A DNA stretch of 43,298 bases from an uncultured Myxococcales bacterium. GTDB lineage: Bacteria > Myxococcota_A > UBA9042. This document shows positions 7,520 to 36,066 of this stretch, piece by piece. The notes below the pieces were generated by a model. The model was given only the letters and a program-made list of their open reading frames with translations. It was not told the DNA's origin and made no database searches. How positions within the stretch are numbered: the first letter of the stretch is position 1; each line of letters begins with the position of its first letter. A program made the translations under genes and the position numbers. The DNA is taken from positions 1-43,298 of the forward strand of contig CALENB010000353.1 in the NCBI GenBank assembly GCA_937910235.1, in the 5' to 3' direction.

Positions 7520-10327
7520 TCAGTCGTTGGGCAAGTCCAGCTTCATGTCGTCGCCGTCGGTCAACGCCCACCTCGCGCGAAGGCGATAGTGCGATGCCTG
7601 CGGCGCGCTCCCCTTGCGGCGGCGCTGCGTCGTCGGCGTCTTGAGACGCTCCACCTTGAGCAGAAACCCGACCCCGGTGCCGTTCACCAGCATGTCTTGA
7701 TCGTTGGTGCTCGGCGTGACCTGGATCTTGCGCACGTCGGAGTTGGTGCCCAGGTCGCGCACAGTGAGCCAGTAGGCGCTGCCCTCAGGGGCGCCCGCTT
7801 CGAGTCGGATGCGTCGCATCTTCGCGTCGCCGCCGTTGATTCGGATCCAGTCCACGCCTGCGGCGTCGTCCGCGTTACCGACATGCCAAGCACCCAGGAC
7901 CATCGCAGCTGCGGACGCGGCCGTGTTGTTCGGCTCGGTCTCCGTCTGGTCGCTAATGTCCTCGACCCGGTACCACATGCGATAGTGGATCTCGTCATCC
8001 GCCCCGGGTTTCCAGCGGTTTCGCGCCTCGTCGCTCCACTGCAGCACGATCCGGTGCGGCTCCTGGCTCGTCGTCGCGGCGAAGGCGAGCACGCTCGACT
8101 TCTCGCCGTCGCGCAGCTGGTCGGCCGAGAGCACGCGGCCCTTGTTGTCCTGCACCGTGACCCGCAGGCCCTCCAGCGAGCGATCGTTGGCGCTCGCCAC
8201 GTGAATCCGCAGGATGCGGCTGTCGAAGCGCTCGGCGAGCTGAAACACGTCGACGTCCAGGGGACCGTCCAGCGATCCGTTGACGCTTTTGCCGCCCGTT
8301 AGGTTGTTGCTGCGTTTGCCGTCGTTGGGCTCCGTCTCGGTCCAGGCGCTGCGTGGCTTGGTCTCGACCCGCAGCGTGTACATGTCGCTCAGGCTCTCAC
8401 CGGCCACCTTGCCCGTACGGGCGCGCTCGGTGATGCACACCGTTCGCGGACCGAAGCGCGTGTCGACATGACGCAGCACCTCGCCACGCCCCTCGCCGCG
8501 GTGGCTCAGCACCACGCGCGCGACGCCGGCCGTGTCATGCAGCGACACCTCCAGATCCATGGTCGGCACACCGCGCACCTGAATCGTCAGATCATCGCTA
8601 GGCGCCACGTTAGGCAGCACAAAACAGTCTTTGTCCGCCATCTCACGGGATCGCCGCTGGCCGATGCTGCCCTTCGCCTCGTGCGATGCGTCCAGGTGAT
8701 TCGCTTGGTCCGGCGCGTCATTCGGCTCTTGCTCCTGCCCCACACCCTTGCCCGCGAAGCTCAGCATCGCCGCTGCCCCTGCACCCAGCAGCACGACCAA
8801 GATCGCGACAAAGGCGAGGCGCTGCATCAGGCCAGTGCGCCGCACGTGACCCTCCAGGGCATCCTGGTCGGCAAGCAGCGCGTCGGTGCGTTTTCGCTCC
8901 GCGGACGTCATCACCTCGCCAGCCGGCACCGCCTCGCGCTGTGGCCCGATCCCGGCGCCCGTGAAGTCGGACTTGCGCGCCTCCACCAGCGCCGCGGCGA
9001 GCTCATCCATGGACTGGAAGCGGTCTTTCGGTGCCTTCGCCAAGCACTTCGCGACGATGTGCTCCAGCGTCTCCGGCACATGCGCACCACCCGAGACCTC
9101 GCTCATCTTGCGCGGCGGCTCCATCAGGTGCGCTTTCAGGATGTCGAACGTGCTCTTCTCTTGGCCGAACACCTGCTGGCCGGTGAGCATGCGAAACGCG
9201 AGCGCGCCCACGGCGTAGATGTCGGAGCGACCGTCCACGTCGCTGGCGCGAATCTGCTCCGGGCTCATGTAGAACGGCGTGCCGAAGATGTCTTTCTGGG
9301 AGTGGATCGTATACGGGTCGTCGACGTCTTCGACCTTCGCGAGCCCAAAATCCAGGATCTTCACGAAGTCCGGGTGCGGCCCGTCGGACTGCAGCATCAC
9401 GTTCTCTGGCTTCAGATCGCGATGCACGATGCCCGCCTTGTGGGCCTCGGCGAGCGAATCGCACATCTGCAGCAGGATCGCGGTCGCGCGCACGGCAGGC
9501 ATTGGGCCTTCACGCACCAGCGCTTCGTCCAGCGCCTCGCCGCGCAGCAGCTCCATGACCAGGTAAAACACCTCACCCCACCGGCCAAAATCGTAGACCA
9601 TCACCGTGTGAGGGCTGGACAGCCGTGAGATCGCCCGGGCTTCGCGGGTGAAGCGGCTGACGAGCTGCTTCTTGGAGATCAGGTTCTCGTGCAGCAGCTT
9701 GATCGCCATCTCTTTGCGGAGATGAATCTGCTCCACCCGGTAGACGGCGCCCATGCCGCCGCGGCCGACCAGCGATTTCACCAAGTAGCGCTCATCGATG
9801 AGCTTGCCGACGTAGGCGCTCCGCTCGCCGTCTTCGTCCGGCGCTTTGAGGTCCTCCGTCGACGAGAGCCGCGTCGCCGCGTCATGATCGACGTCGCCCT
9901 GTGGCGCTTCTTTCGCCTGGGGAACGGCTTTTTGTCGATTGGTATCACGCGGGTGGGGCGGCGGCGCGTCCGGCAGCGCGTCCAAGTCGGGGGCCGCCGG
10001 ACCGGCGCCGGGGCTGCCCGGCAGCGCGCGCGCATACATCAACGTGTTGTCACGTCGGGCGTCGTTCGTGTCGAGTCCGAGCTGCTGCGCAGCTTGCGGC
10101 GGGGCCTGTCGTTGCACCGGCGCGTTCAGCTCCTCGTCGGTCGGCGCGCTCGCGGAGGTCGAGCTGCGCTTGCGGTTTCGTCCGCCCAGCGGCAGCGGCG
10201 GCGGATTGGCGACGACCGCGCCTCCCGAAGCCGGCAAGAGCGCCTGCCCATCGAGCGGGCAGTACTGCTTATCAGCCGGATATTCGGCTTTGCAGCTGGG
10301 ACAGACCTTCTGGGTTGACGGTGTCAC
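7520..10327 (-). CDS. Transmembrane Ser/Thr protein kinase with zinc ribbon and PPC-like modules
   Basis: A 935-aa Hanks-type kinase. Order of parts: an N-terminal zinc ribbon (Cys9, Cys12, Cys23, CPLDG); a Pro/Ala/Gln-rich linker to about 175; a kinase domain at about 181-450 with glycine loop VGRGGMGAVY, Lys210, HRDLKPEN with Asp304, and DFG at 326-328; and one TM helix (about 503-524). The extracytoplasmic part has three modules starting with EPND or EPNN (near 534, 666 and 798), each about 125 residues and beta-rich, like bacterial pre-peptidase C-terminal (PPC) domains. All key catalytic residues are present, so it should be active. The external modules probably sense or bind something in the periplasm. 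The start is the ATG at 10325-10327. It is transcribed away from the TolB-like gene end. Confidence 0.95.
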   Translation of the reverse strand: MTPSTQKVCPSCKAEYPADKQYCPLDGQALLPASGGAVVANPPPLPLGGRNRKRSSTSASAPTDEELNAPVQRQAPPQAAQQLGLDTNDARRDNTLMYARALPGSPGAGPAAPDLDALPDAPPPHPRDTNRQKAVPQAKEAPQGDVDHDAATRLSSTEDLKAPDEDGERSAYVGKLIDERYLVKSLVGRGGMGAVYRVEQIHLRKEMAIKLLHENLISKKQLVSRFTREARAISRLSSPHTVMVYDFGRWGEVFYLVMELLRGEALDEALVREGPMPAVRATAILLQMCDSLAEAHKAGIVHRDLKPENVMLQSDGPHPDFVKILDFGLAKVEDVDDPYTIHSQKDIFGTPFYMSPEQIRASDVDGRSDIYAVGALAFRMLTGQQVFGQEKSTFDILKAHLMEPPRKMSEVSGGAHVPETLEHIVAKCLAKAPKDRFQSMDELAAALVEARKSDFTGAGIGPQREAVPAGEVMTSAERKRTDALLADQDALEGHVRRTGLMQRLAFVAILVVLLGAGAAAMLSFAGKGVGQEQEPNDAPDQANHLDASHEAKGSIGQRRSREMADKDCFVLPNVAPSDDLTIQVRGVPTMDLEVSLHDTAGVARVVLSHRGEGRGEVLRHVDTRFGPRTVCITERARTGKVAGESLSDMYTLRVETKPRSAWTETEPNDGKRSNNLTGGKSVNGSLDGPLDVDVFQLAERFDSRILRIHVASANDRSLEGLRVTVQDNKGRVLSADQLRDGEKSSVLAFAATTSQEPHRIVLQWSDEARNRWKPGADDEIHYRMWYRVEDISDQTETEPNNTAASAAAMVLGAWHVGNADDAAGVDWIRINGGDAKMRRIRLEAGAPEGSAYWLTVRDLGTNSDVRKIQVTPSTNDQDMLVNGTGVGFLLKVERLKTPTTQRRRKGSAPQASHYRLRARWALTDGDDMKLDLPND

Positions 10328-27232: not shown

Positions 27233-28081
27233 TCAGCGTTTGTGCGGATCTGGGAGCGGCTCACACTGCTCGGTGTGCAGCGTGCAGACCTTGGGCGTGC
27301 CTTGAGCGGCGCCAAACGCCTTGATGTAGCACTTCTTCTGCGCCTCGACCGTCGCGCTGACCGCGCCGCCCGGTGTCATCTCCTGAAAACACCGCCACTC
27401 GCAACAGTCGAGCTTCTCCTTCGCCGTGTCCCACAGCTGGCACGTCTTCAGGAAGCCGCAGAAGCCTTTGCAGACCTGCTTGGCGTCGGTGAACTTTGGG
27501 TCGGTGATCTTGTCTTTCCAGTCGCAGACCACCGGATCGATCACCAGCTGGCCGTGTGTGTCGGGCGATTGGCAGACGCGGGTCGGCAAGCCGGGGTACA
27601 GCGGCGCGGCCTTCCATTTCGGTTTGTCGCAGGTGTCCCAGCCCGACCAGAGGCTCTTGCACGTGTCGGAGTTGTTGCAGATGGGCGCGCAGAACGTCGC
27701 CGCTGCGCCCTTGAAGTCCGGCGGCAGCGCGATGCACAGGCCGGCGCGACCGTGGCTGCCCAGCGTGTCGCAGTAGTCCCCCGGGTTGGCGCACACCTTG
27801 CTGCACCACGGCTGTGACGCCCAGTCGCCGTCCATGCAGGTCAGTCCCGCCGCGCAGACGCCGTCGTCACAGCGTTCGCCGAAGCCGGGCGGGGCGGCGC
27901 CGGACCCGTCGGCGGCGCCTGACGTCGCATCTGTCGTCGTGCTCGCCGGGTCGGTGCCACACCCGACGAGCAGCAGGAGGCATGAGAGCAGCAGGACCGA
28001 CCGCAAACCGCGCAGAACGAGCCGCTGAGCGACGTGGTTCGCGGCGCCGCGCGGTGGGTTGTCGACACAGGTGCTGGTCAT
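27233..28081 (-). CDS. Cys-rich lipoprotein, unknown function
   Basis: A 282-aa predicted lipoprotein. The ATG at 28079-28081 overlaps the epimerase stop as ATGA. A hydrophobic segment (about 27-40) ends in the lipobox LVGC (Cys41); the signal region is long for a type II signal. A Thr/Ser/Ala/Gly-rich linker follows, then a Cys-rich domain (about 70-282) beginning GERCDDGVCAAGLTCMDG, with many spaced Cys pairs and Trp residues (WSGWDTCDKPKW), probably a disulfide-stabilised extracellular fold. The CDDGVC motif recalls myxobacterial cysteine-rich surface proteins and the larger lipoprotein at 2.9-5.1 kb, but the rest is distinct. Translationally coupled to the epimerase. Confidence 0.82.
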   Translation of the reverse strand: MTSTCVDNPPRGAANHVAQRLVLRGLRSVLLLSCLLLLVGCGTDPASTTTDATSGAADGSGAAPPGFGERCDDGVCAAGLTCMDGDWASQPWCSKVCANPGDYCDTLGSHGRAGLCIALPPDFKGAAATFCAPICNNSDTCKSLWSGWDTCDKPKWKAAPLYPGLPTRVCQSPDTHGQLVIDPVVCDWKDKITDPKFTDAKQVCKGFCGFLKTCQLWDTAKEKLDCCEWRCFQEMTPGGAVSATVEAQKKCYIKAFGAAQGTPKVCTLHTEQCEPLPDPHKR

Positions 28082-29001
28082 CGGGTCACGCCGCGGAAGA
28101 ACGCGAACGTCGCCGCGATGCCGTCGTCGAGGCCGTGCGCGGGCCGCCACCCTGCGGCGCGCAGCTTGTCGACGCCCGCGCGCGAGTGGCGCACGTCGCC
28201 AGCGCGCTGCGGCCCAAAAACCAGGGGCGCGGCTGTGTCCGCGGTCGCCACAATGCGTTCGGCGAGGGCGCGAATCGTGATTTGGTCGCCGTAGCCGACG
28301 TTGTGCGCGCCGTGCAGATCGGGGTGTGTCGCCGCAAAGACCAGCGCGCCCACCACATCCTTCACGTAGATGAAGTCGCGGGTCTGCTCGCCGTCGCCGT
28401 AAATGGTGATGGTCTGGCCCGCCAGAGCGCGCTCGATGAAGATCGGCACCGCCGCCGCATAGGCACCGGTGGGATCCTGGCGGGGACCAAAGACGTTGAA
28501 GAAGCGCAACGAGGCCGTCGGCACCAAGCCTTCGCGCTGAAAAAGCTCGCAGTAGTGCTCGCCGTCGAGCTTGGTGATCGCGTACGGGCTCTTCGGCTCG
28601 GGCGTCATCGTCTCCACTTTGGGCACGATCGGGCTGTCACCGTACACCGCGGCGGAGGAGGCCAGCACCACCTTCTTGACGCCCGCATCCGCCGCCTCAC
28701 GCAAGACGTTCAGCAGGCCGGTGACGTTGATGTCGATGCACGTGTCCAGCGCCGTCATCGATTCGGGCACCGACACCAGCGCGGCGAGGTGAAAGACGTA
28801 GTCCACCCCGGCGACCGCCTCGCGCACCACCGCCCGATCGGTGACCGAACCAGCGATGAACGTGTGGGTCAGCCCTTCGAGGTTACGCAGATACCCGGTG
28901 CGCAGGTTGTCGAGCACCCGAATCTCGCTCGCGATCCCCTGAAAATGCGCGACCACGTGACTGCCAATGAATCCGGCACCGCCCGTCACTAAGATCTTCA
29001 T
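28078..29001 (-). CDS. NAD-dependent UDP-sugar epimerase (GalE/WbpP-like)
   Basis: A 307-aa extended SDR enzyme. It has the Rossmann motif TGGAGFIGSHVV near residues 6-17, FHLAALVSVPES, LASSAAVYGDSP, and the catalytic YAITK (Tyr-x3-Lys) in KSPYAITKLDGEHY, plus RFFNVFGPRQDPTGAYAAAVP and YGDGEQTRDFIYVKDVV near residues 170-220. This is the set of GalE- and WbpP-type 4-epimerases of UDP-hexoses or UDP-GlcNAc; the exact sugar cannot be told. The start is the ATG at 28999-29001, preceded by GGAG. First gene of the minus-strand group to epmA; divergent from the universal stress protein. Confidence 0.93.
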   Translation of the reverse strand: MKILVTGGAGFIGSHVVAHFQGIASEIRVLDNLRTGYLRNLEGLTHTFIAGSVTDRAVVREAVAGVDYVFHLAALVSVPESMTALDTCIDINVTGLLNVLREAADAGVKKVVLASSAAVYGDSPIVPKVETMTPEPKSPYAITKLDGEHYCELFQREGLVPTASLRFFNVFGPRQDPTGAYAAAVPIFIERALAGQTITIYGDGEQTRDFIYVKDVVGALVFAATHPDLHGAHNVGYGDQITIRALAERIVATADTAAPLVFGPQRAGDVRHSRAGVDKLRAAGWRPAHGLDDGIAATFAFFRGVTR

Positions 29002-31578: not shown

Positions 31579-33645
31579 ATGTTCAGTCTCCCTCCACGCC
31601 AAGACGCCCCACTCCTGCGGCGCCACGCCACGCTGGCGCTCCTCGCGGCCGTCGTCGTGCTGACCGCCGCTTGCGGCAACAAGAAGTCCACCACGGGCGA
31701 CGCCGCCGGCCCTGGCGCCGCAAAACCGGGCGCGCAGGCGGCGGCTGGCCTCGACCGCGCCAAGCTCGGCGCGACGCAACCCACGGTCGACGTGCTGGCC
31801 TTTGTCGGCTTCGAGTGCCCGCACTGCCGCGCCAGCGCGGACACGCTGATGAACGTGCTCGAGGCCAACAAGCAGGTGATGCGCCTTCGCATCATCAACC
31901 TCCCGCTCGACGTGCACCCGCACAGCGTCGCGCTCGCCAAGGGTTTCGTCGCCGCGCGGCGCCAGGGCCAGTGGCAGTCGTACTGGCGCCACATCTTCGG
32001 CCTCAAAGCCGCGACCGAGGCGGACGTCTTGAACTGGGCGTCCGGCGTCAAGCTCGACCTCGCCAAGTTCAAGGCCGACCTAGCTAGCGCAGAGGTCGCC
32101 GCCGAGCTCGGCGCCGACGCCGGCCTGGCGGAGGCCCTCGGGGTCGCTGGAACGCCGAGCTACCTCGTCAATGGCGCGTTGCTACAGGGCGCTCGCAAGG
32201 CCGACGAGTGGCAGCGCATCATCGCGAGCCAGGTCGCGCTCGCCGCTGATCTGCGCAAGAAGGGAACGAAAGACCCGGATTTGCTGCGCGCGCTCGTCGA
32301 CCGCAACAGCCCCAAGCGCGCGCCGCACTACGCCACGCTGGTGCTTGAAGGCCAAGCGCCGAAACCAGCAGTGGTTCCGGTCGTCACCAAAAAGCGCACG
32401 AGCGGCGTCGTCTCGGCCAAGCTCCTGCCCGGCGGCGGCGGCGGCGGCGGCGGCGCTGTGCAGCTCGGCGGACCGCGACCCGGCGCGAGCATCGATGAGA
32501 CGCGCACCGTGTGGCGTGTCGTCGTTCGGCCCGACGATCCAGTCCGCGGGCCCAAGACTGCGCCGCTGACGGTGGTCGTCTTCTCGGACTACGAGTGCCC
32601 CCACTGCAAAACGCTGCAGGCGACGCTCACAGCGCTCATGGCCAAGTACGGCAAAGACCTCCGCATCGTGCACAAACACAATCCGCTGCCCTTCCACGCC
32701 CTGGCGATGGCGGCGGCAGAGGCGGCAGAGGCGGCGCGCGCCCAAGGCCATTTCTGGGAGATGAACGACGCGCTCTTCGCCGCGGCGCCTGCCCTCAAGC
32801 CGGCCGCGCTGAGCCGCATCGCCGAGGAGATCAAGCTCGACAAGCAGAGCTTCGACAACGCCATGAGCGCGCACGGGGCTCGCAATCGTGTGCAGGCTGA
32901 CATGGAGCAAGCCGCCGCGGTGGGTGCGCGGGGCACGCCGAACCTGTTCATCAACGGACGCAAGGTCGTCGGCGCCAAGACCGTGGCCGACCTGACGCCG
33001 TTGCTCGACGCGGAGCTCGCCGTGGCCAAGAAGCTCATCGCCGATGGCACGGACGCCGCCGCGGTGTACGAGAAGATCGTTGGTGAGGGCCGCCTGCTCG
33101 ACAGCCTGGCGCCGAAACCGGTGCAGATCGAGACCGCCGGCGCCGCCACACGTGGCGCCAAGGGTGCCGCTATCCACATCGTGACGTTTCAGGACCTGCA
33201 ATGCCCCTTCTGCGCGCGCCTCGACGTGCATATCGCCGCCATGGAGAAGGAGTTCGACGGCCGCGTGAAGGTGACGTGGATGGACTTCCCGCTGCACAAG
33301 ATCCATCCGCAGGCCCAGCTCGCCGCGGAGGCCGGGAAAGAGGCCTTGGCGCAGGGTAAGTTCTGGCCATTCCACGCGGTGGTGATGGCCGATCAGAGCA
33401 AGCTGGACGAGGCCGGTCTTGTGGCGCTCGGCACCAAAGCCGGCTTGGACACGAAGAAGCTGCGCGCGGCGCTTAAGAGCCACAAGTGGGCGGCCGCGGT
33501 CGCCAAGGAAGCCGCGGAGGCTGCGAAGTTGGGGCTTAAGGGGACGCCGAGCGTCTTCATCAATGGCTACGCTTTCACGCCACAGCTGGGGTTCTCGGCC
33601 AACACGTTCCGCTCAGCGATTCGTCGCTTGCTCGGTGCGCGCTAG
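31579..33645 (+). CDS. Lipoprotein with three tandem DsbA-like thioredoxin domains
   Basis: A 688-aa predicted periplasmic lipoprotein (lipobox LTAAC, Cys32). Three DsbA/thioredoxin domains follow: domain 1 (about 68-225) with CPHC at 80-83 and cis-Pro loop GTPSYLVNG (Pro193); domain 2 (about 325-490) with CPHC at 340-343 and GTPNLFING (Pro454); domain 3 (about 528-688) with CPFC at 542-545 and GTPSVFING (Pro657). All three keep both active-site Cys and the cis-Pro, so all should be redox-active. Domain 2 is preceded by a glycine run encoded by GGC repeats. DsbA proteins oxidise exported proteins, while DsbG/C-like ones isomerise; the direction cannot be read here. The start is the ATG at 31579 with GGAG 7 bases upstream. 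First gene of a four-gene operon. Confidence 0.93.
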   Translation: MFSLPPRQDAPLLRRHATLALLAAVVVLTAACGNKKSTTGDAAGPGAAKPGAQAAAGLDRAKLGATQPTVDVLAFVGFECPHCRASADTLMNVLEANKQVMRLRIINLPLDVHPHSVALAKGFVAARRQGQWQSYWRHIFGLKAATEADVLNWASGVKLDLAKFKADLASAEVAAELGADAGLAEALGVAGTPSYLVNGALLQGARKADEWQRIIASQVALAADLRKKGTKDPDLLRALVDRNSPKRAPHYATLVLEGQAPKPAVVPVVTKKRTSGVVSAKLLPGGGGGGGGAVQLGGPRPGASIDETRTVWRVVVRPDDPVRGPKTAPLTVVVFSDYECPHCKTLQATLTALMAKYGKDLRIVHKHNPLPFHALAMAAAEAAEAARAQGHFWEMNDALFAAAPALKPAALSRIAEEIKLDKQSFDNAMSAHGARNRVQADMEQAAAVGARGTPNLFINGRKVVGAKTVADLTPLLDAELAVAKKLIADGTDAAAVYEKIVGEGRLLDSLAPKPVQIETAGAATRGAKGAAIHIVTFQDLQCPFCARLDVHIAAMEKEFDGRVKVTWMDFPLHKIHPQAQLAAEAGKEALAQGKFWPFHAVVMADQSKLDEAGLVALGTKAGLDTKKLRAALKSHKWAAAVAKEAAEAAKLGLKGTPSVFINGYAFTPQLGFSANTFRSAIRRLLGAR
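32431..32456 (+). repeat. (GGC)n microsatellite encoding a poly-Gly linker
   Basis: Eight consecutive GGC-type codons give a run of Gly in the linker between domains 1 and 2 of the triple-DsbA protein. The repeat is in frame, so slippage would lengthen or shorten the linker without disrupting the protein. Confidence 0.85.
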
Positions 33646-35563
33646 TCGCCTAGGCCGTTGGGCTTGGGTCGCGGCCGCGCTGCTGGCGCCGGTCGCGGCG
33701 ACGTCGCTGGCGCCGCTCACGGCGACGGCTGCGGCGGGACCAACTCCGATCGCGCCGCGGGCTGAGCCGACCGCGCAGGCGGTGTTCTCCGACGCTGCTA
33801 GCCCGGTTATTCGGCTGTTTCTCGATCTTCAGGATCCCGCGTCGCGGTCCGCTTGGCGGGCCTATCGCGCGGCCATGGCCGGCGGCCCCGGTCGCATCGT
33901 CGTCCATCCGTTGCCGCTGGCGCGCCACGCCGACGCCCGCGCCGCCGCACACGCAGCCCTCGCGGCCCGACGTCTTGGCAATGAGACCGGTTTCGTCGAC
34001 GCGCTGCTCGCGCGCCACGCGCTGGGCGTCGCCGACTTGCGCGCTGCCGCCGCCATCGCAGGCCTGCCAGCCGCCCGCTTCGAAGCCGAAAGGGTGAGCG
34101 CCGGCGTCCGCGCCCAGGTGGAGCGCGAGCGACGCGCGGCGATCGCGTTTGGTGTCCGCGCCACGCCGAGCGCGCTCCTGGTGGGTCGCGGCGTCTCGGG
34201 CTTGCCGTCCCGGAGCGCTTTGCCGGCCGCGCTCGCCGCCGCGATTGTGCGCTGGCGCGCGTGTCAGACCGCGTCAACCGCAGACTGTGAGGCCGACAAG
34301 GTCGGCGCTGGCGGTCCGACCGCCCTGGCTGCGTTCCAGAACCTGCGCCGCGCCGAGGCGTCCACTGCTGCCGCCGCGACCGGCGGCGGTGTGTTGGTCC
34401 CCGCGGCGCCCGGCCACCTCGGCACACGCTGGCGGGTCACGCTGCCCAACGACCCCTTCCAGCTCCCGGGGAGCCCCGACGCCATCGCGGTTTGGTTCGT
34501 CGACCCCGCAGATCCGGGCTTTTCGCGCAGCGCGGACGTGCTGCTGCGCGCCGCCCGCGCTGGTCGCGTCCGACTCGTGCTGGTGCCAATCACCGGCGCG
34601 AAGGCCCCGCTCACGCCGGCCCTCGCGGTCCACGGCGCCCTCGCCGCCCTCACACAGGCGCAACGCGAGCCGCGGCTCCACGCCCTGCTCGCTAGCGTTG
34701 ACCCGCAGGCCAGCGGGCTGGGGAGGCGCCTGGGCATGACGGCAAAGCAGGTGACGGCCGCGGCGGCGACGACACAAGCCGTCGTGCGCTTGGAGGCCGC
34801 GCTGCAGCTGGCCCAGCAGGTCGCCGCCGAGCCGGGCAGCCTGTTCCTCAACGGCCGTCGTTGGCATGGACGCCTCGATGATCCCGCGCTGAACAAGGCG
34901 ATGGCCATGGCCACCGCCGAAGCGAAGGCCCTCACTCAGATGCTGGGCAGTGAGCGCTACATCCGACTCGTCGCGAACGGTCGCAGCCGAAGCCAAGCCG
35001 AGGCCGATCTCGGACCGATGTTGCCGCCGAGCGCGCTCGACGGCCTCGCCGACCTGGGCCACGCCGCCCCGCCGAGCGCAAGTGGCGTCGTGCACGCCTG
35101 GCTGCTGGTGGATTTCCGACGCATGGGCTCGCGTGCGGCGTTCTATGCGCTGTTGTTGCTTCGCGCCGCCGCCAACCATCCGGTGCACTTGCACGTCGCA
35201 GCGATAGCGCCGTCCCGCCGCGCCGCGTCGCCCGCCAGCGTGGCCCTGCTGATCGCCGCACGCCACGGCAAAGCCGTCGCGTGCGCGCGCCGGCTGTTTG
35301 GCCTCGCCAACCCGAGCGATCAGCGCCAGCTGCGCCGACTGTACTCGGCGATCGGTCTCGATCCGCGCCTGCTGGTCTCCGACGCGCGCCACCCCGCCAT
35401 CCGCGCCGCCGCCGCCGCGACCGCGACGCTGCAGCGCAGGTACGCCCTTCAGGACGCTCCCGTGATGTACCTCGGCGGGCGTCGCTACGTGGGTCCGATC
35501 GACGAAAACCGCATCACGGCCGCCGTCGCTTTTGTGTCCGCACATCCGGAGTCGCGACCATGA
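33635..35563 (+). CDS. Redox-dead paralogue of the triple-DsbA protein
   Basis: A 642-aa exported protein with three DsbA-like domains but no CxxC. The GTG at 33635 overlaps the previous gene by 11 bases and gives a signal peptide (about 1-34). Ungapped alignment to the upstream protein shows CPHC replaced by DPAS in domain 1 (residues 67-70; FLDLQDPASR against FVGFECPHCR), CPHC by DPGF in domain 2, and CPFC by RMGS in domain 3. Domain 1 keeps the cis-Pro loop (ATPSALLVG, Pro178); domains 2 and 3 keep only partial remnants (SLFLNGRRW, PVMYLGGRRY). Only three Cys remain, outside the active sites. The frame is intact over 1.9 kb, so it is not a pseudogene. It probably acts as a binding partner or chaperone rather than an oxidoreductase. 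Its stop overlaps the next start. Confidence 0.85.
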   Translation: MRASRLGRWAWVAAALLAPVAATSLAPLTATAAAGPTPIAPRAEPTAQAVFSDAASPVIRLFLDLQDPASRSAWRAYRAAMAGGPGRIVVHPLPLARHADARAAAHAALAARRLGNETGFVDALLARHALGVADLRAAAAIAGLPAARFEAERVSAGVRAQVERERRAAIAFGVRATPSALLVGRGVSGLPSRSALPAALAAAIVRWRACQTASTADCEADKVGAGGPTALAAFQNLRRAEASTAAAATGGGVLVPAAPGHLGTRWRVTLPNDPFQLPGSPDAIAVWFVDPADPGFSRSADVLLRAARAGRVRLVLVPITGAKAPLTPALAVHGALAALTQAQREPRLHALLASVDPQASGLGRRLGMTAKQVTAAAATTQAVVRLEAALQLAQQVAAEPGSLFLNGRRWHGRLDDPALNKAMAMATAEAKALTQMLGSERYIRLVANGRSRSQAEADLGPMLPPSALDGLADLGHAAPPSASGVVHAWLLVDFRRMGSRAAFYALLLLRAAANHPVHLHVAAIAPSRRAASPASVALLIAARHGKAVACARRLFGLANPSDQRQLRRLYSAIGLDPRLLVSDARHPAIRAAAAATATLQRRYALQDAPVMYLGGRRYVGPIDENRITAAVAFVSAHPESRP

Positions 35564-36066
35564 GCCCTGCCGTGTCCACAGCGCCTCGCCGCGGCTTGTT
35601 GACCTGGACGCTGCGCGGCACGTGGCTGGCGTCGCGTGCGCCCGACGTGGTGCGCCCGGCCGAGCTGGTGCTCACGGCCTCGTTGCCGCCGCGAGGCACC
35701 GCTGGACCGCGGCACCTCGCCCTGCACGGCCAGCTGCACCTCGATGGTTGGCTGAACGCGGCTCCCGTGACGGGTCAGCTCTCCCTGGTACCGGGCCTGC
35801 GCCTCGGCGTGCGCTACGACCTCGACGTGCTGAGCACGCCGCCGATGCGGCTCGCCTTCTCGCTCAGCCCGCGGCTTGACCAGCCGATTGACAGCGTCAC
35901 ACGCCTCTGCACGACGCTCACCAGCGACGACGGCGCGGTCGGCGTCCTGCACCTCCGTTTCGACGTCCGCCGCGACCTCGCGCCGCACCTGCTGACCGCC
36001 CTGCGCGGCCGCAAGGCGCCCTCGTCACCCGGGACTATCCCCTCCTCACGCCGGACCAACCCATGA
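35560..36066 (+). CDS. Hypothetical protein, 168 aa
   Basis: Starts at ATG 35560 overlapping the previous stop (ATGA) and ends overlapping the aminotransferase start in the same way. The sequence is beta-rich, with repeated phrases such as LHGQLHLDGWLNAAPVTGQL and LGVRYDLDVL, then an extended GVLHLRFDVRRDL. It vaguely recalls the small calycin-like accessory domain found at the end of some lipase and GMC oxidoreductase proteins (GTV...PVxGxL...MRYxL), but I cannot assign it with confidence. No signal peptide or TM segment. Tight coupling to the redox genes and the aminotransferase implies a shared pathway. Confidence 0.75.
   Translation: MSPAVSTAPRRGLLTWTLRGTWLASRAPDVVRPAELVLTASLPPRGTAGPRHLALHGQLHLDGWLNAAPVTGQLSLVPGLRLGVRYDLDVLSTPPMRLAFSLSPRLDQPIDSVTRLCTTLTSDDGAVGVLHLRFDVRRDLAPHLLTALRGRKAPSSPGTIPSSRRTNP

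Follow-up and report, generated by a model that had tools for sequence, protein, structure and literature searches.

The eukaryotic endoplasmic reticulum (ER) is well known to contain thioredoxin-fold proteins that are not catalytic, and calsequestrin, an acidic calcium store, holds three cysteine-free thioredoxin folds in one chain. The subject of this study is a bacterial gene pair, P1 and P2, in a 43,298-nucleotide contig of an uncultured Myxococcales bacterium (CALENB010000353.1, assembly GCA_937910235.1; this whole stretch of DNA is called the window), in which a triple-DsbA protein with three CxxC sites is followed by a sister of the same plan that has no active-site cysteine. The pair is real, conserved and unusual, and P2 is best classed with the non-catalytic thioredoxin-fold proteins that are sisters of a redox protein. 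Among the described systems, several ER members of the protein disulfide isomerase (PDI) family are without any active-site motif, and members with a CxxS motif, such as AGR2 (CPHS) and ERp44 (CRFS), have been described as holdases (PMC12384036). In UGGT, the folding sensor is a series of DsbA-like domains, with which misfolded proteins are probably recognised (PMC7687155).

ERp27, ERp29, the b/b' domains, AGR2 and ERp44 resemble the pair in having lost cysteines or in carrying the same CPHS, and they act in client binding or retention (PMC12384036); unlike P1 and P2, however, these PDI-family proteins are eukaryotic, belong to another thioredoxin subtype, and have neither three DsbA domains nor a paired gene. 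A CxxS/T site, which would mark a holdase of the AGR2/ERp44 type, is found in most P1 and P2 orthologs and is absent from P1 and P2 of the window genome. UGGT shares with P2 a tandem series of DsbA-like domains (TRXL1-4) and was its best whole-chain structural match (E 1.7e-8), but the overall TM-score is low (0.3) and UGGT contains a glycosyltransferase whereas P2 has none. Single-domain fold matches in Foldseek were to bacterial DsbA, BdbD, ScsC and 3gyk-type oxidoreductases (TMt 0.8-0.87 for P1, 0.76 for P2), which, unlike P2, consist of one domain with an active CxxC. Calsequestrin has three Cys-free thioredoxin folds, as P2 does, but the folds of P2 are DsbA-type and its chain, with a pI of 7-11.4, ranges from neutral to strongly basic (40 acidic and 70 basic residues in the window P2), and a calsequestrin-like calcium store was rejected on this charge. 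No description of a bacterial Cys-free tandem DsbA protein fixed beside an active sister was found in a non-exhaustive search of the open-access literature, nor did this search, which covered Myxococcota DsbA, DsbA proteins of several domains and bacterial DsbA-like proteins free of Cys, turn up a description of this pair.

Architecture of P1 and P2

The features of P1 in the window are as follows.

31579-33645, + strand: P1, 688-aa likely lipoprotein with three DsbA/Thioredoxin_4 domains
31672-31674, + strand: lipobox Cys32 of P1, the likely lipidation site, invariant in 20 orthologs
31774-32244, + strand: P1 DsbA domain 1, aa 66-222 (Pfam and AlphaFold2)
31816-31827, + strand: P1 site 1, CPHC (aa 80)
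32554-33018, + strand: P1 DsbA domain 2, aa 326-480 (Pfam and AlphaFold2)
32596-32607, + strand: P1 site 2, CPHC (aa 340)
33166-33642, + strand: P1 DsbA domain 3, aa 530-688 (Pfam and AlphaFold2)
33202-33213, + strand: P1 site 3, CPFC (aa 542)

Thioredoxin_4 (PF13462) was recognised by Pfam in three stretches of P1 (5.1e-58), and its AlphaFold2 model (mean pLDDT 83.9) contains three DsbA-type domains. A hydrophobic N-terminal signal segment precedes Cys32, and P1 is likely a lipoprotein, as expected from this conserved cysteine. An earlier note, made by a model from the DNA letters and their open reading frames (ORFs), had described three CxxC sites with cis-Pro loops, and a GTP cis-Pro loop indeed accompanies each site in the window genome. 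The window P1 thus carries the hallmark of a DsbA thiol oxidase (CxxC plus cis-Pro), and its orthologs vary from none to three CxxC sites.

The corresponding features of P2 are listed below.

33635-35563, + strand: P2, 642-aa putatively exported protein with three DsbA-fold domains and no active-site Cys
33635-33645, + strand: overlap of the P1 end and the P2 start, 11 bases (P2 start GTG at 33635, P1 stop TAG at 33643-33645)
33791-34252, + strand: P2 DsbA domain 1, aa 53-206 (AlphaFold2, and hhalign with P1 domain 1)
33833-33844, + strand: P2 site 1, DPAS
34166-34168, + strand: cis-Pro P178 of P2 domain 1, invariant
34466-34924, + strand: P2 DsbA domain 2, aa 278-430 (AlphaFold2), more divergent than domains 1 and 3
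34511-34522, + strand: P2 site 2, DPGF
34835-34837, + strand: Gly401 in place of the cis-Pro of P2 domain 2
35066-35542, + strand: P2 DsbA domain 3, aa 478-636 (AlphaFold2), with the strongest Pfam DSBA match
35120-35131, + strand: P2 site 3, RMGS, followed by invariant Arg500
35459-35461, + strand: cis-Pro P609 of P2 domain 3 (in 'DAP'), nearly invariant

The N-terminus of P2 resembles a signal peptide, and signal-like starts occur in nearly all P2 orthologs. Pfam DSBA (PF01323) matches P2 at 1.3e-7 (32.1 bits against a cut-off of 25.6) and matches all 20 P2 orthologs. In the AlphaFold2 model of P2 (mean pLDDT 83.8; input for both proteins was the alignment of the window protein with its orthologs) three DsbA-type thioredoxin domains are predicted, each a thioredoxin fold with an inserted helical domain according to the DSSP order, so the possibility that P2 lacks thioredoxin folds was not borne out. 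Profile-profile alignment joins P1 and P2 end to end, linkers included (573 columns, E 5.6e-44), and sets DPAS, DPGF and RMGS of P2 opposite the three CxxC sites of P1; the overlapping start and the common three-domain plan reported earlier are confirmed. All six active-site cysteines are replaced, and the CxxC hallmark of a DsbA thiol oxidase is absent from P2, as the earlier note stated, but its view that a single cis-Pro loop survives needs correction, since two cis-prolines are kept and only domain 2 has lost its own. P178, G184 and R500 are invariant among P2 orthologs. Conservation of the cis-Pro loops is 0.82, 0.67 and 0.64 in domains 1 to 3, against 0.57, 0.46 and 0.51 in the rest of the respective domain, and the former active-site loops of domains 1 (0.66) and 3 (0.71) also lie above the rest of their domains.

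P1 and P2 most likely go back to a DsbA lipoprotein with three domains that was duplicated in tandem long ago. In a domain tree meant to date this duplication, the P2 domain groups each have a single origin, with weak support for domain 2; the deeper branching is unsafe on account of the long P2 branches.

Conservation and selection of the pair

P2 lies directly downstream of P1 in 21/21 family genomes whose DNA extends that far, a count that includes the fragment in G002, whose contig ends inside P2, and G005, whose P2 sits at the contig start; the G020 contig appears to end inside P1 beside rarA. Every related genome is either a metagenome-assembled genome (MAG) or one with no known cultivation status. 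No family genome was found in which P1 is kept without P2. With the gene pair conserved in 21 genomes, the sequence pattern of P1 and P2 is far beyond chance. The pair was found in a single uncultured Myxococcota family, whose named records are MAGs, mostly titled 'Myxococcales'. Beyond the family, 52 class genomes yielded no full-length P2, and a wider contig scan gave 17 P2 matches, apparently the same genomes of the family.

Twenty genomes from many genera have an open P2 frame, and the G002 fragment is open as well, in line with the intact frame first seen in the window. Eight P2 pairs gave dN/dS values of 0.17-0.29 by the Nei-Gojobori method, and P1 gave 0.085-0.27; several dS values are > 1, which makes these figures rough. 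The highest P2 values (0.28-0.29) came from the window pair and G004/G011. P2 is under purifying selection. The case that would have spoken against the earlier proposal, a P2 missing or degenerate in genomes that retain P1, did not occur, and the core of that proposal, a selected non-redox triple-DsbA protein always beside P1, holds. One genome, G007 (L073, - strand, 8015-9322), has a P2 of 448 aa from which the whole middle domain is deleted, with all three domains kept in P1; domain 2 of P2 is therefore dispensable.

Cysteine loss across the family

P1 orthologs do not share a fixed set of dithiol sites. Three CxxC occur in one genome, that of the window, two in five genomes, one in ten and none in four, and the usual change is from CxxC to CxxS or CxxT. 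At site 1 the first Cys is present in 20/20 orthologs and the second in 6/20. Site 2 is CxxC in 12/20 and CxxS/T in 4/20, with both Cys and the cis-Pro gone in the remaining 4/20. At site 3 QCPF is invariant, and the second Cys, retained in 5/20, is otherwise replaced by S/T. Constant across the family are, in P1, the nucleophilic (first) Cys at sites 1 and 3 (20/20), together with the DsbA folds and most cis-Pro loops. Genus g6 (G008, G012, G015 and G017; loci L085, L084, L086 and L083) has no CxxC in P1 and none in P2. P1 domain 2 is there without either Cys (AQES/AQET/AQEA) and without its cis-Pro (GFAALY), the same change as in P2, and neither protein of the pair has a dithiol site in these four genomes. 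Given these four pairs and the variable CxxC elsewhere, dithiol oxidation is not the family-wide function.

P2 site 1 is CxxS/T in 11/21 genomes, CxxC in 3/21 (CPHC/CQHC) and without Cys in 7/21, namely in the window genus, G014, G009 and G007; in the G002 fragment the first domain can be read, and this site is APEA. Parsimony requires at least three changes for this pattern; Cys losses may be more numerous than estimated here, because support for the species tree is weak at some inner nodes. Sites 2 and 3 have CxxC or CxxS/T in no family genome examined; site 3 is without Cys in every ortholog, most commonly as SPHS. The window P2, with none of the six Cys left, therefore marks the endpoint of a family-wide trend. 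The earlier picture of a fixed split between an active and an inactive protein does not extend beyond the window: P2 retains a Cys at site 1 in 14/21 genomes, and the "one active, one dead" contrast is peculiar to the window genome. As a separate observation, a Cys-less P2 site 1 mostly goes with a full CxxC at P1 site 1 (window, G001, G009, G014, G007), with G003 and G002 as exceptions, a pairing that may merely reflect ancestry.

Tandem DsbA/Thioredoxin_4 proteins elsewhere in Myxococcota (contigs C254 and C364 of the window's genome, and other families of the class) have three tandem DsbA domains like P1; the nearest NCBIfam model, NF041057, scored 141 bits, below its cut-off of 190. The examined paralogs have CxxC in every domain seen, save a CPFS at C191, whereas P1 and P2 are losing theirs, and the trend of Cys loss is accordingly particular to the P1-P2 locus. 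The CPFS site lies in a DsbA-type domain at contig C191:3161-3640 of the window's genome (G000), the one domain detected there in a 721-aa ORF. With intermediate stages from three CxxC to none within one syntenic pair, the family could serve as a natural series for how a redox enzyme turns into a protein-binding module, and for the role of DsbA domains minus their chemistry.

Proposed function and alternative explanations

The retention of P2 under selection despite its Cys loss suggests that it holds proteins and does not make disulfides. We favour, with moderate confidence, a reading in which P1 serves in disulfide capture or isomerisation and has P2 as a non-redox, client-binding sister, comparable to non-catalytic PDI domains, CxxS holdases and the DsbA-like domains of UGGT; the pair as a whole would be shifting from dithiol chemistry to protein holding. 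P1 would be anchored at the membrane as a lipoprotein, and the nucleophilic Cys of its sites 1 and 3 would capture or isomerise client disulfides; at CxxS sites the mixed disulfide would be longer-lived than with CxxC, as in a holdase. Exported P2, putatively periplasmic, would perform no redox chemistry in the window genome and could bind client or partner polypeptides non-covalently through the retained peptide-binding face of DsbA, formed by the start of the active-site helix and the cis-Pro loop. Substrate peptide is held at this active-site face in DsbA, with the cis-Pro loop as an anchor (PMC13269488), and chaperoning of Cys-free substrates by DsbA is possible (PMC8386657). Bulk disulfide formation would be left to other proteins: VKOR was found in 21/21 relatives searched and DsbB in 0/21, and Thioredoxin_4 and VKOR lie within one reading frame at contigs C363, C414 and C40 of the window's genome, so that VKOR-DsbA fusions probably handle general disulfide formation.

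Several observations weigh against this reading. Cooperation of P1 and P2 is suggested by their fixed gene order, and their rates do not covary beyond those of neighbouring genes (partial r = -0.19). P2 outpaces P1 in evolutionary rate except in g6, where the rates are similar, as a loosely constrained protein would too. The UGGT match is not specific, for P1 matches UGGT as well, ranked below ordinary DsbAs, and none of UGGT's Thioredoxin_12-15 Pfam domains was found in 20 P2 orthologs, which matched DSBA and Thioredoxin_3/4/5 only. Homology of P2 with UGGT was rejected, given the missing Pfam support and a fold match common to P1. A bolder version of the proposal, which we regard as quite unlikely, makes P1 the covalent holder and P2 the non-covalent reader of a dedicated periplasmic folding sensor or holdase, an independently arisen bacterial counterpart of UGGT/PDI quality control, for which a triple-DsbA protein would have been duplicated and its redox sites progressively removed.

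A structural role for P2, one of the options in the earlier note, is an alternative: within an obligate P1-P2 complex, the dead DsbA domains of P2 would pair with those of P1 and position them. The invariant adjacency and order in 21/21 genomes, the gene overlap in the window genus and the homology over the whole length are what such a complex would predict, but the missing rate covariation speaks against it, and domain-by-domain pairing would not tolerate the G007 pair, with a P2 lacking the middle domain beside a three-domain P1; this explanation is possible but unlikely. It is also unlikely that P2 acts in most genomes as a monothiol covalent trap with P1, through CxxS at site 1, and that the window-genus P2 is a relaxed remnant. 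The prevalence of CxxS/T at this site, with at least three changes by parsimony, and the dN/dS peaks in the window pair and G004/G011 would fit a trap; nevertheless, the window-genus P2 is intact in every species with enough DNA and still under purifying selection, has no frameshift and retains all three predicted folds, and sites 2 and 3 are motif-free family-wide, so two thirds of P2 would never have been a trap there.

Binding of a small ligand or ion, in the way calsequestrin binds calcium, would suit the equal domain count and the non-redox roles possible for Cys-free thioredoxin folds, yet the neutral to strongly basic charge of P2 is the opposite of calsequestrin's, and we consider it very improbable. 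That P2 is a pseudogene or decaying duplicate is barely credible: its fast evolution and the loss of all catalytic residues could be read this way, but the dN/dS values and the open frames in 20 genomes, on which this candidate was rejected, as well as the G002 fragment, the conserved motifs and the invariant P178, G184 and R500, argue otherwise.

Gene neighbourhood

The conserved gene order is USP (universal stress protein)-rarA-P1-P2-aminotransferase; beyond the aminotransferase gene, a VTT-domain gene and a HEAT-repeat gene lie on the opposite strand. One further reading frame adjoins P2 in the window.

35560-36066, + strand: small ORF that shares 4 bases (ATGA) with P2 and another 4 with the aminotransferase gene

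This ORF has no Pfam or NCBIfam match, and tblastn found counterparts in just 3/20 relatives; it is a possible operon member. Elsewhere in the window, an ORF at 27233-28150 (- strand) encodes a Cys-rich, lipoprotein-like product without a Pfam match, conserved at 69-70% within the genus and at 39% in G009. One of the loci, L091 (CAMDBH010000011.1), comes from a MAG titled Klebsiella pneumoniae that bears this Myxococcota locus, and its label looks wrong.

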